Translations under genes and position numbers: made by a program | Source: Saccoglossus kowalevskii | Lineage: Eukaryota > Hemichordata > Enteropneusta > Harrimaniidae | Direction: 5' to 3' | Assembly (NCBI RefSeq): GCF_000003605.2 | Contig: NW_003137831.1 | Coordinates: forward strand, 573,455-595,827 | DNA length: 22,373 bases | Shown: positions 9,307 through 22,373 of the stretch, in pieces | Layout: the number at the start of each line of letters is the position of its first letter | Numbering within the stretch: position 1 is the stretch's first letter | Notes under the pieces: generated by a model | Database searches by the model: none | What the model saw: only the letters and a program-made list of their open reading frames with translations | What the model was told of the DNA's origin: nothing

Positions 9307-12300
9307 TTAATTCATCAAGACTTCTAATTGGACCAATCTGGCATTGGTGTCGCCGGGCATCCTGTACGGCAACATGCCAGCAAACGTAATCAGTGCTCTG
9401 GCTTGCTTTCGTAAATAGTTAACATACTGCAATGAAAATCAAAGCACAATTACAGTAACCATTGAAATAAACAATTGAAACTAGTTTTTCTAAATTGAAA
9501 GCTAGCATCATGTTTAATTATCAGACTTGGCGGTAGATTAATTCATGAAACTTGTACGACACAGTATATAACAAAACCTGTTTAGGCTATTGTACTTGAG
9601 TCTCATACTAAAACTTACTGATTCCTTGCCACCATCTTCCGTTCTTAGTCCAGTTCTGATTGTTCTCTTACTGGCATTCTTATACTGGGCGTACAGTATA
9701 TTCATTGTGGCTAATAAAACTGCAGCAAGGTTATGTCTTATCTGTAATGAAAAACATGAATTTGCATAAACTACTGTAGAAGTGAGAGCCTTTCATACAC
9801 AACATTGGCCCCATCCACTGTTGAATTATAGGCCAGCAAACTAGGATGTTACTTGTTTACATTTTGTAAAGCTGCATGGTGATTTCTGATAAAACATTTA
9901 AAAAAAAAAGACCAGTTTAGATGAAAAGAAGAAAAGGTACCTCATCAGTATACTGCTTGAATGCATGTACTCTCTGTTCCACCGAGTCCAATGTTAATGG
10001 CACCAATTTTAGTTGCTGAATGATCTGTCAAAATATGACATGGCGCATGCATTAACAAATATGCCGCATCAAAAAGTAATATGGTGCATAAACAAATCCA
10101 GTAGCTACAGTAATATGGTACATCAATAAATAATATGGACATATAGATGTAATATGATGCATTAACAAATTTTATGATGCATTAACGAATATGTTATGAT
10201 GCATTAGCAAACAATACACACTCGATATGTTGCATCAAATGATATTAGCAGTTTGTAGAGTGACAGTGATTGGATTTATCCATCAACTCTCCATACAAGA
10301 TGAAGAATAAATGAACCACACTCACCTCCATGGCTTCATCCAGATTTCCACTATGAAAATGATCAAAGAATGTAACAAGGTCTAATAGCAGAAAAAATGT
10401 GGGTGTGACCAACTGACTAGCATGGTGACCATGTGCATGATATCTATAATACATGATAGGTAACACGTCAGTATGCATAATCAGAGTAAGGAAAAATAAT
10501 ACTAATAAATACTTAGTATTCAAGGATACACAAATAACTCTTATAAGAAAGCTGATACTTAACAGATAATCTATGAGAACAAGCATTATTCTTTGATCAG
10601 TCATACAATGCCTGACTTTCACGCATACCATGAACCAATCCCTTTTCAGGGTTATTGTACATGCGCAAAGCCCATACAAAATGAACCTCTTGTTCATACT
10701 TTCGGTAAATACGGAAAAGTACATAACTCAACAAACCGATCTGAAGAAGTTTGTCAGATGAAAACAAAACTAACCTTTCTGCAATAGATAATGATAAGTT
10801 TTTCAGCCGATCCCTTGTAGACTGTGGACTATTAGGAGTAGACACCAAAGGAGACAATAATTTATTTAACAGTTCAAGAACCTTGTCATGATTCTGTAAA
10901 ACAAAAATAACAGAGGTTACAGGTCGAGTTAAAGGCCCAATTCACTTGCCCCGGGCAAGTGTGAATTGGAGGTGTGATTATGCTAATGAGTGTTGTTAAT
11001 CACTTGCATAGCCTAGGACGCATCCTGTTTCAGCGGTCCAACATCACGTGACTTTGATTGACAGTAGTTAATTATTCAAGATTAGTTGCGCGTCCCTTTC
11101 CCCGGTTCGAGTTTTTGACTTTTATCCGCCAAAATCTCAGCTCGTACACTATTTATTGTCATAAATACTACACACAGTCACTGCTGTGATATTCATAGTC
11201 GCATGCATCCACTTTGGCATGACATAATCGACCTGTAAGTTCGAGAAAACGCGCTATTACCGGGGCTTGGCTGGAGCTGTTTACTACAGCGTGACAAGCA
11301 AGGAAATAATCCCTATTGTTTAGGACCGTATTTATAGTATATCTGGGCCTTTAAGTCAGCTTAGTCTTTTCCATGAAACAAAACCCTAACCCTAACCTTA
11401 AATTTTGAACGACTTCAAACATCGTCACGTCACAGAAATAAATTTGTTGAGAATATTTAGTTTCCACCTCTTTTCCGTCTACTTTGCAGCTTGATTCATT
11501 TGTGCTGACATGACGTGACAGCCATTTTGGAATTGTTGAACACTGATGGCGCTATTCATTTCATGTTTCACAGTGTGAAATTTTCTCAGATATTATTAGG
11601 CCAATGAAAAAAAATGCGGGTTAGGGTTTCGTTTCGTGGAAAAGACTAAGCCGGTTAGGTCAGGTCAGGTAAGGTAAGGTCAGAGAACTTTCACATTAAA
11701 GTAGTACTGTATTGTCGTTGAAAGTCCATTCAATTTTCAGTAACTTGGTCAAAAACCTGAAAGTTGTGGCATTCGCGAGTCGAGTTATACAGAATGAAAC
11801 CTGATAGTCGTTTATCACCTACATTATTGTTCTCTTCACTAGAATAAATTCTGTCATGCATTACCTTTTGGAATTCTGCTTTGGATGCGTAGTAAATGTT
11901 CGAAAATTTAAAGTTTGTAAAATGAGTAAAATAGTAGTCCTATGAATTCAGAATAGAGCAATGTACATAAAAATAGATTTTGGAGTACATAATACAAAAT
12001 TCTTCATATCAAATATGATTTTATAATGAGGAACATTTTTCATTATTGAACAGACAATCTTGCATGAGATTACTGTAAACTTAAGCATAACTTTTCGAAC
12101 ATCTTTCCTGACACCTAAATTGTAATTTAGATTTTTTGTAGTTACAGACGTCAATTCAAGAGTACATTGTTGAATTTGTGTTATTGTCTAGACTATACTT
12201 TTTGTTACAAAGTTAAAACCAATACATATTACACTGAAATCACAGTTATACATATTAATGAGTATCTTTTGTTATGTGGAAATACCAAAATTGTTTTTTT

Positions 12301-15300
12301 GCTTGACAGATTCAAAAGTTTCAACAGTTTGTGATTCCTATTTTCAGAACTAAATTAAGGTAACTCTTCCCTGGTGCCTAAATTAGAGTTTTTATGGTAG
12401 GTGTGAACATGACACCATAAGATACTGCAAAAAATCACTCACGAATGAATCCGCAAGTACTCAGCATTTTGGCAAATACAAAAATTGTTGCATTTATTAT
12501 ATTACACATAATACTTGCCAAAAGTTTCAAACAAAATGTTTCAGAAAATGCAACTCTAACCGGGCCATGTGCATCACATAATACACTGTACATGGTATTG
12601 ACTGCAACTTACCCCAGCTAAATCATACAACTTGACAGCATCTTCAAAAAGTCCTTTGTCTTCAGTATCCCTGGCAACAAGCTGAATAATTTTCTGAGTA
12701 TCATCCTGAAACTTATCGATGGCACCTGGTTTCCGACAACCATCGCGTTCCAAGTGCCCCAACAACATTTCAAATTCCCTCGTTTCAGTAACAAGCTCAC
12801 TAACACACTTCATGAATAAACTCTCACGATTGGAGTCTTTCATGTTTCTGTAACAGTACAAAAATATGTTGTATATATGTAGTAATAAAATTTCAAATTC
12901 TGAATCAGTAAGGTGTTTACCGTTAGTGTTCACTGGAATACTGCCACTTAGACACGTGTCCAGTACTGATATAAGAAAAACACTTTCTGCCCTCAGCCCC
13001 CTGATATGTACACCCACATGGCGTCAAATATCAAAGGTCCCATAGAATTCTTCACATGATATGTCATACCATTCTATGTGCGCAAGGATGTTATCATCAT
13101 AGGGCAGAAGATAATCAACTCTTTATCATCTCGATGACCTTATGTCATTTCTACACAGTATACGCTGGAGATTATAGATCAGAAAAGGTCATTAAAGTTG
13201 TAATGTCATCAAAATTATTATTCTCTACACTACAATAAATTCTGTCATGTAGTTATGGTCTCTCAACTTGGTTGCAACAGTAGAGAGGAACTATCAATGT
13301 TAATTATACTCTTATAAACTCTCACATCACTTCTTTACCTGAGAAGGTAGAAATACTGCAATGCCTCTATGGGATCGGTACTTTCAAACTTTCTGGTATA
13401 TGTTGTGATAAGACGGGCACAATTGAGTCTCCTGATTGGGACTGGGTCTGTAGATTCTCGGCTCACTGAAACAAGAATCAGACTATTAAAATCGCACTGG
13501 GAGACAGTTTTAACATCAAAATCAATATTTGTTATCTTTTCTCAAATTTTTTTTCAACACTTCTGATCAATACCTACAAGCAATTAAAAAAAATCAAAGA
13601 AAGCTTAGAAAGAACTCGCATGTAGGGTATTGGGGATATGAAGTACAAATAAGGAATACTGTATTTACTATATTAGAAGTACATCTTGAATTCACATAAA
13701 ACAAAAATTGTATTTATTGCATGCAAAATCTTTGAAATATGTCTTATTTTGACCACAGAATTGCCTTTGTCTAAGATATTACAGTTATACATATTAATGA
13801 GGTCACATGACCATACATGAACATGTGGAATGTTAGTCGTATCTCTTGTCAAATAGTAAAGGACTATAGCACTTGTGGCATGTCATTATCTGCAGCAGTG
13901 GTTGAGATATTACACTTATGCATATTAATGAGGTCACATGACCATACACGAACATGTGGAACATTAGTCGTATCTCTTGTCAAATAGTAAAGGACTACAG
14001 CACTTGTGGCATGTCATTATCTGCAGCAGTGGTTGAGATATTACACTTATGCATATTAATGAGGTCATATGAACCCATTTATACAAGTTGGGTAATTAAT
14101 ATACAGATTCCTACCCCGAAATAATCAATCTGTGAATTTTCCAAAAGCACCTATGTACCAATTTTTATTGAAATTTGATGAGTGGTACTCAAGATATCTG
14201 TAGAAAATTAGGTAATTAGTAAGCACATAATTTAACACTATACTAAACTAAACATTATATGACTTATACCAGAGCACCTATGTATCTAGTTCATTGAAAT
14301 CTGATGAGTAGTGGCGGAACTAACAATTTACTAATTAATATGCAAATTAGGTGATTAATATTCAAAGATAGTAACACAAAACTAATCAGGTCTGTGAATT
14401 ATTACAGACCATCTACAAATCAAGTGTTATTGAAATCTGTTAAGTAGGTCTTGAGAAAAAAGTGAAAAGTAAATGACAATGATGTAGCACATTTATAATA
14501 ATGTAATTACATTTTGGAATATTCAGTAAATCTTGAGAACAAATCTGAAGAGAAAGCATAGAGGTGGTAGATCACGATAAAATAGCCGTATTAACAAGAC
14601 GAAAACTTACATAACTGTGCTTGTATGTTAACGGGTAATGCAAGAAAACCAAGTTCGTACAAGACAGCGGCAACATGTACGGCGTGACATCGGAGTCTAT
14701 CTCGCCTGGAGAGGAACTCAACAGCTGCCTCAAATTGTGCTGTTAGAAACAACACTTTGAAATAGAGAAATGGATGATGATGAGCGTTGAAGTGGGACTC
14801 TCCGTACTCCTCCAATAAAGATGTCTGAAATTGACTCATACTCAGTCCATCGCTGTTGTTATCATAATGAACTTGACATAACTGAAACAGAAGACAAATT
14901 AGAGGATACATTAAAGTGAATGAGTGGTGTTGTATGCATGTGTGACCCTTGACTCACTGGACTGTAGCTGTGCACCACTTCCTCCATTCTCGCCGCCAGA
15001 GTTTATTTTCGCTTCAAGATTCAACGAAATATTTCTCTCTGTGTTAGGCTTGCCGTAAAAGAGGTCGAGGCTGTGGCGTACAACGATGCACTTCCTCATA
15101 CTCACAAAAAATTGAATGACACATTTATGGATGAGTGACATAATAAAATCAGTACATAAAAAAAATGATAATTTCTGTAATGTTCATTAACCAGGCAAGG
15201 CAGCTATAACTAAACCAAAAAGTACTTTAGCAGGTATACAATAACTTCTTGTACTGAGCATGAGTTCCAGCATAGACTCTTTAGTCCCAATCAATTTACA

Positions 15301-18300
15301 ATATATGATTTTTTTGTGGGGATGCATCAATGTTTTTTGATTTCTCAATTAATATAGCTTTGAGGTACCCTTGATGAAAAGTGAGCTATGTACATAAATC
15401 ATAAAGTGATGACTGCCCTCAGCCCCCTGATATGTACACCCACATGGCGTCAAATATCAAAGGTCCCATAGAATTCTTCACATGATATGTCATACCATTC
15501 TATGTGCGCAAGGATGCTATCATCATTGGGCATGTCATCAATATGTCTCACATGTACTATAAAGCTTTGTATATGATAAAAGTGAGAGTTGTTAGTACCC
15601 TCACTTGCATTGCAGGGTAGGGTGTGATGAGTTGATGCGGCAATTCCAGAATGAAAACTACAGCCTCCCCGGGTCCTCGCTCTCATACAAGAAATCAAGG
15701 CAGGAATTTTAGTAGGTTATATTCCCACACTTTTAAAATCTGAGGTACCAGCACATATATGCTTTGTTACTCAGAGTGGATACTTGCCTTAATCCACAAG
15801 TAATCATCTGTTTTATCAGCAACATCAGAGTGGTTCTCATTGGGATCACAGTGACCGATAATACAGTACACAGCCCTGAAAGACAATTTCAAATAGAGCA
15901 ATATTTATTTTTCCTTGAATGTCACCAGATTGGTACCCTTTATTGCTCATATTGCTGATTGCATTGGAGTTAAAAGTGTACTCTCAAAATTCAATTTGAG
16001 TGTCAAGTTACCCCCTCGTTTTTTTTTTTACCGAAGACAATTTCAAATTTCGAGGTTCCAAGTTCCAAGTCAGTGGCTGGGCTGTAGATGACATACGAAG
16101 ACACAAAATAGTATTTGGTTTTTCTTTGTACATTTATAATTTACATATTTCTGAAATCATATTCTTATTGATTGTTGATTCCATCATTTAAAAATACAGT
16201 AAATATTTATTTTCAAGAACTTTTTTTTAAAATTTCACTGTTTCAAAACTAAGCAATGTAAATAAATCTTAAAATGATGACTGCCCTCAGCCCCCTGATA
16301 TGTACACCCACATGGTGTCAAATATCAAAGGTCCTATAGAATTCTTCACATGATATGTCATACCATTCTATGTGCGCAAGGATGTTATCATCATAGGGCA
16401 GTTTTTGAACTAATCGGTTGACCATTAGAAACTCTTGGATGGGAAATGCTAGAAAATCTGTGCACTTATTCAGAAAATCCTAGAGGGGAGACGAGATAGA
16501 AAAACTGTGCAATTTATTTTTCAAAATATCATCATGAAGTTTCATACTCACCGTTTATATGGATCATTGCTTCGTTTTACAGCTCTCCGGTAGTGAAGGT
16601 GTACTTTACTCTCTGTGTTAGGTGGCAGTCTAGAAACACAAAACACATAGCATTAGCGTGCACACATAATAACTTAGATCATTCCAGATTTAAATAATGT
16701 AGATTACATGTATCAATGTTCTACCATAAGAGAAATTACATTCACTGGATTTATATTTAAAGGTGAGGGTGAATACCTTTTATCTTCTGTGTGCATGTAC
16801 TCTTCTAAATACTCTCTAAATTCACCAAGATTTTGCCTGCAATTAATTATAATGAAAGTAAATAAAACTAAAATTTACAATTACTATCCAACCTCTTGTG
16901 GTGCATAAAACACATAACCCCTCCCAATGGTACAGTCGCTCTCCCATTGAGAGATCAGTAGCAATTCCACATGCACAACTATTTTGGGGTAATAACCTCT
17001 TTATCGTATCATACACACACATGGTTATGCTTTCATGGATCTCATGCAGACGGATTTACAGCATAGCTCAATAGTATTCATAGATGTATGTGCTAAAAGC
17101 GTACTGTGTTTGACACAATTGTTTTTTGAATTTTCTTTGTCATTCATGTGCACATTACTCGTAATAAATACCATAACAAATGGATATAATTTTAATATAG
17201 CAATTATTATTATCATAGTATGCATATCATTTTCCATGTTTGGGTCAAATAACAGATCGACGAATGAGGGCGTGATTTCAGCACGAGCCGAGTCGGTTCT
17301 AAATGGGTCCCAACTAATGTGAACGCAACTGCTGTAATCCCTCTGCGAACACAAAAGATTAAACATTTCGGCACATGCCGAGATTCCGTAACGTGAACAT
17401 AGTAAATATCAGTGTAACATGGAATTAGATATTTTAGGTAAACGCCACTGCAAAAGAACCATAACAATCATGTGAAACCATGACAACCACAGAATTTAAT
17501 ACCCTCCACTATGTAATCAGTAAGATCAACAAATAGATTATCTTACGTTGCTTTTTTGACAGCTTGCATTGCTCCGTGTAAGTCACCACATCGAATACAA
17601 TAATAGATGACAGCCCAGACAGGGTGCCCTTCTACATCGCCATCCTGTGAAAACCGAACGATTTTAAATGGAACAAATCATGACATTTTACCTATTTTAC
17701 CTAAAATGACTGATAGTGCTCCTTATTAGACCCTAACCTAATACTGGTAAGTTATTACAGATAAAAATGCTGACAATACAGATGTGCAAGGAATATTGCT
17801 TGCAACACAACTTTGTCATTGTCACTCAATTTAATAGCTGATGAAAACACAGATTAGGTGTATAAAACAAAATCAAAAAAAATACTTGGCTACTTACCTC
17901 CAGGCCTGGTGTGTTTGGAGGTAATTTGATATTCAGGTAACTTCTGACAAGATGGTAGGTGCCTGGAATTCCACCAAGCTGTGCCTGCTGAAGGTTTCCA
18001 TATATGGTGGTGCTAATAAACTTTTTGTAACTGGGAAAAAATAAGAAATTACAAAAAATATTGAATTGTACAAAATATGAAATTATACATCATACTGTAA
18101 ATTGAGACAAAGAAGACATAAATTCCTGAACATTTTGTAGCACTGAACATTTCAGAAAATGCCCTTGAGTCAAGAAATAACAAAAATGGAATAGTTTATG
18201 ACAATGACATCAATGATGGACAAAAATGAAATGGACAAGAGACATTTTGCCACTGCTACACATATAACTTTCCCTTCACTTCACTTCACTCTGGCTGCTT

Positions 18301-22153: not shown

Positions 22154-22243
22154 ACTAGATCTAGTGCTAAAATGGCACTAGATCTAGCGCTAAATTGGCA
22201 CTAGATCTAGCGCTAAAATGGCACTAGATCTAGTGCTAAAATG
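22154..22243. repeat. 23-bp palindromic tandem array, 4 units
   Basis: ACTAGATCTAG starts at 22154, 22177, 22200 and 22223, an exact 23-bp period. Each unit is of the form ACTAGATCTAGTGCTAAAAT plus GGC. CACTAGATCTAGTG is a perfect palindrome, and the link between units, GATCTAGTGC with GCACTAGATC around a 7-base loop, folds as a 10-bp hairpin. The two middle units read TAGCGC instead of TAGTGC. It lies in the most upstream part of NUP93 visible here, probably an intron. Confidence 0.85.
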
Positions 22244-22373
22244 TGCACAGTGCGAGTGGCATTGTTATCGCATTGTCAACAACGTCGAATAATTGGAGAG
22301 ACATCAACAACCACTTTCATATGCAAACTACAAACAGTATAAAACTGTAGCACATTTCCAATGAATGAAATAT

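Follow-up and report, generated by a model that had tools for sequence, protein, structure and literature searches.

Three SNORD23-like box C/D snoRNA candidates in NUP93 introns of Saccoglossus kowalevskii carry a complement of the U6 internal stem loop

Several box C/D small nucleolar RNAs (snoRNAs) are described as guides for the U6 small nuclear RNA (snRNA). The U6 table of a 2021 review (PMC7960923) gives guides for Am47, Am53, Cm60, Cm62 and Cm77 and none for Gm54, Cm63 and Am70; SNORD7, SNORD8/9, SNORD67 and SNORD10 are entered there for residues 47, 53, 60 and 77. The internal stem loop of U6, placed at 61-80 in a part of PMC13109388, is acted on by SNORD94 (U94), the Cm62 guide. SNORD23 (HBII-115), on the other hand, is an orphan: the parts of two papers that deal with it give its target as unknown (2011, PMC3349704) or list it without a target (2022, PMC8881200), stating no link with U6, and a 2024 study, in its section on the subject, proposes action on immunoglobulin switch regions in silico and calls this unvalidated (PMC11232215). 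Here we describe three units of 121 nt within introns of the nucleoporin gene NUP93 of the acorn worm Saccoglossus kowalevskii, in a stretch of 22,373 nucleotides from contig NW_003137831.1 (referred to below as the window). They are probably relatives of SNORD23, and each contains a 12-nt complement of the U6 internal stem loop. Both the SNORD23 relation and the U6 complement are new beyond a preliminary description of the same DNA.

Known U6 guides are, along with SNORD23, the nearest systems to these units. SNORD7, 8/9, 67 and 10 are also C/D RNAs that act on U6; they act on other sites and are likened to our units by their listing (PMC7960923), not by sequence. SNORD94 acts on the same stem loop, and a primer sequence given for it in PMC6124571, CAGGCTGTGATGATTGGCGCAG, suggests on our own reading that its U6 complement also starts directly after box C. 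The U6 stretch that it pairs is the neighbouring one, and the likeness is drawn from the primer sequence alone. In fission yeast, a C/D RNA of unorthodox architecture, sno530, has 12 nt complementary to U6, with one pair that is non-Watson-Crick, and is reported in the relevant part of PMC10484740 as required for methylation of U6 A64; its C and D boxes flank no hairpin. Our units are likened to it by architecture, not sequence, as unorthodox C/D RNAs with a 12-nt U6 complement. By our own count along the two U6 sequences, fission yeast A64 presumably corresponds to human A70.

The units are present where the preliminary description had placed them. Box C (ATGATGA, of the RUGAUGA type) lies near the 5' end, one base inside a terminal stem CTGCCC/GGGCAG, and box D (CTGA) adjoins the closing stem near the 3' end; both boxes are identical in all three copies, and the stem has 6 bp in copies 1 and 3 and 5 bp in copy 2 (ATGCCC), whose outer pair is lost, all as first described. 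The reported 2-3 differences between copies hold for copy 1 against copy 2 (3 positions) and against copy 3 (2 positions); copies 2 and 3, which differ at 5 of 121 positions, are less alike than that. Copy 2 is bordered by TGATGA 5' and TCATCA 3' of it, just outside the unit, and the two could pair as an external stem.

All three units are intronic and in the sense orientation of NUP93, the usual setting of animal box C/D snoRNAs and the one first proposed for them. The joined translation of three exons on the minus strand matches NUP93 structures (best E 8.6e-57), and the intron borders are splice sites read by eye from the minus-strand sequence. The carrier introns of copies 1, 2 and 3 measure 491, 906 and 676 nt, and the distance from unit to 3' splice site is about 139, 531 and 405 nt, which bears out the earlier remark that copies 2 and 3 are far from that site. 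The intron of copy 2 (15787-14882) has the donor AAG/GCAAGT and is hence a GC-AG intron. Intron 14610-13466, between copies 2 and 1, is without a unit; it holds a tandem repeat of a 131-bp unit in 2.3 copies (13774-14072). When copy 1 was used for a DNA search of all 572 Mb of the genome, the best candidates scored included three matches, all of them inside the window. The element is a triplicated box C/D snoRNA candidate confined to one gene, and a literature search on NUP93 as a snoRNA host gene found nothing related.

At the curated cut-offs of Rfam, the only match in the window is a tRNA. When 200 bases around copy 1 were ranked by E-value against 4227 Rfam families, the best family was SNORD23 (RF00603; 24.1 bits, E 0.0023), with an alignment covering model positions 1-110 of 110, and the whole model is likewise spanned in the other two copies. 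SNORD28, snoR26, sR9, sca_ncR27 and SCARNA18 were rejected as families in the same scan (E 5.9 or worse). Over the whole genome, RF00603 has only three matches at E<=10 among the candidates scored (51 of 5448), and they coincide with the three units. Such a threshold is very permissive: each of the 14 prokaryote controls had matches at E<=10 as well, though none that passed the cut-off. The SNORD23 relation is carried by the coincidence of the matches with three places preselected on other grounds; the E-values alone would be insufficient.

A MAFFT alignment of the unit with the RF00603 consensus shows where the likeness resides. Outside the stem and the boxes, the longest invariant runs are CATCCTTGC (9 of 9), shortly after box C, and GGGGG before box D; elsewhere the unchanged columns are dispersed, with no run among them longer than TGTG. 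To these are added the terminal stem TGCCC/GGGCA, boxes C and D and the placement of a hairpin. The interior sequence, in contrast, is largely unlike. Folds computed with the boxes held open give the same layout in both RNAs, namely a hairpin (hairpin 2 of the unit) that stops 0-1 nt short of box D. Its outer stem of 9-10 bp is separated by a small internal loop from an inner stem of 4-5 bp, which is capped by a loop of 5 nt. Because the alignment gaps fall inside this hairpin, pairs were compared by their distance from box D. All eight columns from -2 to -9 take part in pairs in the unit and in the consensus alike; three of them are changed on both sides, one on one side and four are unchanged. 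Column -1 pairs in the consensus alone, and columns -10 and -11 in the unit alone. When the interiors were shuffled 1000 times each, a helix of at least 9 bp ending at box D arose 18 times for the unit and 49 times for the consensus, and one that also had a span of 34-44 arose 4 and 2 times, respectively. Hairpin 1 is less robust. Within hairpin 2, the change G86A of copy 3 turns an inner-stem G-U pair into A-U.

The host gene differs from that of human SNORD23, which sits in an intron of NOP53/GLTSCR2; here the three copies lie in NUP93. The genome has one NOP53-like match, on another contig (26.8 bits, E 7.1e-4), and the 9.5 kb around it are without an Rfam match at E<=1. A pattern scan of viral contigs for a SNORD23-like start gave none. 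Taken together, the full-model similarity (under the cut-off), the hairpin placement, the occurrence in one gene and the sense intronic location support the initial reading of the units as intron-encoded box C/D snoRNAs, and they are probably SNORD23 relatives that fail the formal Rfam cut-off.

Positions 18-29 of the unit, CATCCTTGCGCA, are a perfect 12-nt complement of U6 UGCGCAAGGAUG, residues 64-75, in the internal stem loop. U6 residues are given in human numbering, and human snRNA sequences are used throughout; in Rfam, too, UGCGCAAGGAUG of the U6 consensus matches the unit's opposite strand letter for letter. An Rfam scan also gave a weak U6 match on that strand (E 1.7), which is explained by the exact reverse complement of UGCGCAAGGAUG. 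When complementarity was compared against U1, U2, U4, U5 and U6, a 12-nt Watson-Crick run to U6 arose in 4 of 5000 dinucleotide-shuffled units and a 12-nt match to any of the five in 4 of 1000, and the Watson-Crick runs of the unit itself to U1, U2, U4 and U5 all stay below 8 nt. Judged by these shuffles, the U6 complement of the unit is well beyond chance. Nine of its 12 bases belong to the block shared with SNORD23, and the element is identical in all three copies, as is the outer stem of hairpin 2. The pattern TGATGA-N3-CATCCTTGCG occurs at three places in the genome, all of them units, and its reversed control at none. The duplex, at 12 nt, is longer than the at least 9 nt to U6 over a methylated residue that we looked for, and U6 64-75 includes A70. 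Coordinates of the units and related features are collected in Table 1.

Table 1. Features of the three SNORD23-like snoRNA candidates, their host gene and U6-like sequences of the assembly
Feature	Position	Strand	Remark
Copy 1, SNORD23-like box C/D snoRNA candidate, 121 nt	12987..13107	-	NUP93 intron 13338-12848; RF00603 24.1 bits
Copy 1 box C, ATGATGA	13094..13100	-	
Copy 1 U6-complementary element, CATCCTTGCGCA	13079..13090	-	complement of U6 64-75
Copy 1 predicted hairpin 2: 10-bp outer stem, 5-bp inner stem, 5-nt loop	12998..13037	-	ends one nt before box D
Copy 1 box D, CTGA	12993..12996	-	
Copy 2, SNORD23-like candidate	15413..15533	-	NUP93 GC-AG intron 15787-14882; outer stem pair lost; RF00603 24.0 bits
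Copy 2 box C, ATGATGA	15520..15526	-	
Copy 2 U6-complementary element	15505..15516	-	
Copy 2 box D, CTGA	15419..15422	-	
Copy 3, SNORD23-like candidate	16281..16401	-	NUP93 intron 16551-15876; RF00603 22.5 bits
Copy 3 box C, ATGATGA	16388..16394	-	
Copy 3 U6-complementary element	16373..16384	-	
Copy 3 box D, CTGA	16287..16290	-	
Host gene NUP93, stretch with the three carrier introns	12848..16551	-	
U6-like sequence	L007 1501-1607		apparent pseudogene
U6-like sequence	L008 1501-1598		apparent pseudogene
U6-like sequence	L009 1501-1608		apparent pseudogene

We consider it reasonably probable, rather than settled, that the units act as SNORD23-like guides on U6, most likely for Am70 and possibly for Cm63. 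From the observed complementarity we infer expression, methylation and site along the following lines. Relatives of SNORD23 would have multiplied within NUP93, and each unit would be freed from the spliced intron, shortened to its terminal stem and taken up by the C/D core proteins. CAUCCUUGCGCA, which follows directly on box C, would then pair with U6 64-75 in the internal stem loop, placing fibrillarin to 2'-O-methylate U6, most likely at A70. Am70 lies in the middle of the duplex and Cm63 directly beside it. A second site at C63 is possible: pairing of U6 60-65 with CAGGGG, just upstream of box D (6 pairs), would make C63 the fifth position from box D in these units. We do not take a box-D-proximal C63 guide as the main site, because the RF00603 consensus does not support this register and the folds show the G run as mostly paired. 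The G run is nevertheless invariant while its pairing partner goes from CCCC to CCUU, which hints at a second role. In the parts of PMC13109388 (2026) that concern these residues, Cm62 and Cm63 suffice to promote U6 m2G72 in vitro, Am70 not being needed, and knockdown of LARP7 lowers Am70, Cm62 and Cm63 alike. The same study points to a supplementary figure with candidate guides for the remaining sites, highlighted by crosslinking, so that a U6 role of SNORD23 may already be in print. U6 Am70 has also been detected in neurons, in a paper whose main text does not name SNORD23 (PMC12724518).

A number of observations weigh against this assignment. The units' RF00603 scores (22.5-24.1 bits) lie about 40 bits under the curated gathering cut-off of 64, and their E-values are weak, at 0.26, 0.26 and 0.75 over the window and 1.6, 1.6 and 4.58 over the genome. 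The U6 match on the opposite strand is absent when a shorter stretch is scanned. With G-U pairs allowed, U2 reaches a run of 15 nt, longer than the 12 of U6, and U1 and U5 reach 10; since the pairing with U2 extends across the G run, box D and the closing stem, we discount it as guide pairing. In the folds the block CAUCCUUGC is partly paired (unpaired 0.78, 0.48 and 0.61 in copies 1-3, 0.43 in the consensus), and GGGGG is mostly so (the corresponding values being 0.20 for every copy and 0.00 for the consensus). No CTGA-like D' box was seen by eye directly after the U6 element, and a recognisable C'/D' pair is missing, as the preliminary description had listed among its weak points; the register for A70 would put D' at CACA in the unit or CCCC in the SNORD23 consensus, neither of them canonical. 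In box C/D snoRNAs, C'/D' boxes are often degenerate and are not required of every one. The failure of the C63 register in the consensus, mentioned above, counts here as well.

Searches of the assembly itself also tell against the assignment. An exact 36-nt U6 pattern, as expected of an intact U6 gene, has no match in it. Three U6 copies were found among 48 of 29445 candidates scored, and all look like pseudogenes, either for want of a terminal T run or because they carry many changes. The best of them (L007), an apparent pseudogene that lacks the T run, nevertheless keeps the 12-mer TGCGCAAGGATG; it has GGCCTCTG where human U6 has GGCCCCTG. Exact 12-mers common to the window and this copy, on either strand, fall in the three units only. 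Nor does 5.8S rRNA (RF00002), sought as a rival target, have a match among the assembly candidates scored. A 28S oligonucleotide pattern gave no match in the genome contigs, nor did 18S and 28S patterns in viral contigs. Finally, RNAduplex with whole units and whole snRNAs yields long gapped duplexes for all five snRNAs, those with U2 and U1 being more favourable than those with U6 in copies 1-3; we judge this comparison uninformative.

The lack of a canonical D' beside the 12-nt element is what an RNA that binds U6 without methylating it would also show. A SNORD23-like C/D RNA might serve as a chaperone or anchor that opens the internal stem loop for other guides or for pairing with U4, and the position of the duplex within that loop (61-80 in the part of PMC13109388 cited above) agrees with this. 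The RF00603 consensus moreover has a further U6 complement, CAGGGGCUGUG, to residues 55-65 with two G-U pairs, which is its most favourable short U6 duplex; as the consensus is rich in G+C, we give it little weight. We think a pure chaperone fairly unlikely: the duplex covers Am70, a methylated residue without a guide in the U6 table of PMC7960923, the same table credits five other U6 methylations to C/D RNAs, and the equally unorthodox sno530 is needed for methylation of A64 (PMC10484740, in the part cited).

Most C/D snoRNAs act on rRNA, and the units might be ordinary ones that act on rRNA, in pre-rRNA processing or on some other RNA, their U6 match being coincidental. The in silico proposal for SNORD23 and immunoglobulin switch regions, self-described as unvalidated in the section cited (PMC11232215), would fit another target. 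Coincidence is difficult to reconcile with the rarity of the Watson-Crick match among shuffled units and with its position, mostly in the SNORD23-conserved block, and SNORD23 is listed without a target in the parts of PMC3349704 and PMC8881200 concerned. This makes the coincidental match quite improbable in our view.

The copies could instead be silent or decaying snoRNAs that were duplicated within NUP93 and are unexpressed. Three features would suit such copies: the outer stem pair lost in copy 2, the change G67A that abolishes the predicted hairpin 1 of copy 3, and the distance of copies 2 and 3 from the 3' splice site. None of the three copies, however, shows a change in the boxes, in the U6 element or in the hairpin 2 outer stem, and neither the DNA search nor the RF00603 scan found a better copy in the genome. 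The flanks are also instructive. As the preliminary description had it, copies 2 and 3 share about 30 bases on one side (25 of 30 identical in the 3' flank, in snoRNA sense; none of 20000 random pairs of 30-mers from the window equalled this), and copy 1 does not share them (7 and 8 of 30). Between copies 2 and 3, 5 of 30 flank sites are changed against 5 of 121 unit sites (Fisher p 0.027), so the unit has changed less than the flank it shares, through selection or gene conversion, which are inseparable on present data. We regard silent copies as very unlikely. That the units are a short inverted-repeat transposon (MITE) resembling a snoRNA is scarcely credible, for all their terminal inverted repeats and near-identical copies with differing flanks, given their similarity to SNORD23 and their occurrence as three copies in 572 Mb, in one gene and one orientation; a dispersed repeat, which the preliminary description had named as the finding that would overturn its reading, is ruled out at the sensitivity of the DNA search.

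Other features of the window lie apart from the units. A 44-bp direct repeat (86%) occupies 11815-11858 and 13206-13249, the latter near copy 1. A tRNA-Gly gene (anticodon TCC, 66.6 bits) lies at 916-987 on the minus strand, and a 23-bp tandem array with the internal palindrome ACTAGATCTAGT at 22154-22248, where weak matches to miRNA families (E 0.57 and 0.23) are probably spurious.

A wider version of the guide assignment can be put forward as a speculation that we hold to be doubtful as a whole. In animals, the guide still lacking for the U6 internal stem loop might be the SNORD23 family, conserved beyond vertebrates. Two contiguous pieces, one after box C for U6 64-75 and one before box D for 60-63, would pair with U6 60-75 and direct both Am70 and Cm63 by way of a non-canonical D'. 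The G strand would stay constant, with its hairpin partner drifting to G-U pairs, since the hairpin must open for U6.

If SNORD23-like guidance of U6 is correct, a guide would be proposed for U6 marks that have no listed one (Am70 and perhaps Cm63), and SNORD23, listed as an orphan, would gain a target. The SNORD23-like RNA would also extend to a species in which its copies sit in a host gene other than that of human. The question of which RNA guides Am70 and Cm63 of animal U6 would then become testable by the knockout of a single snoRNA.

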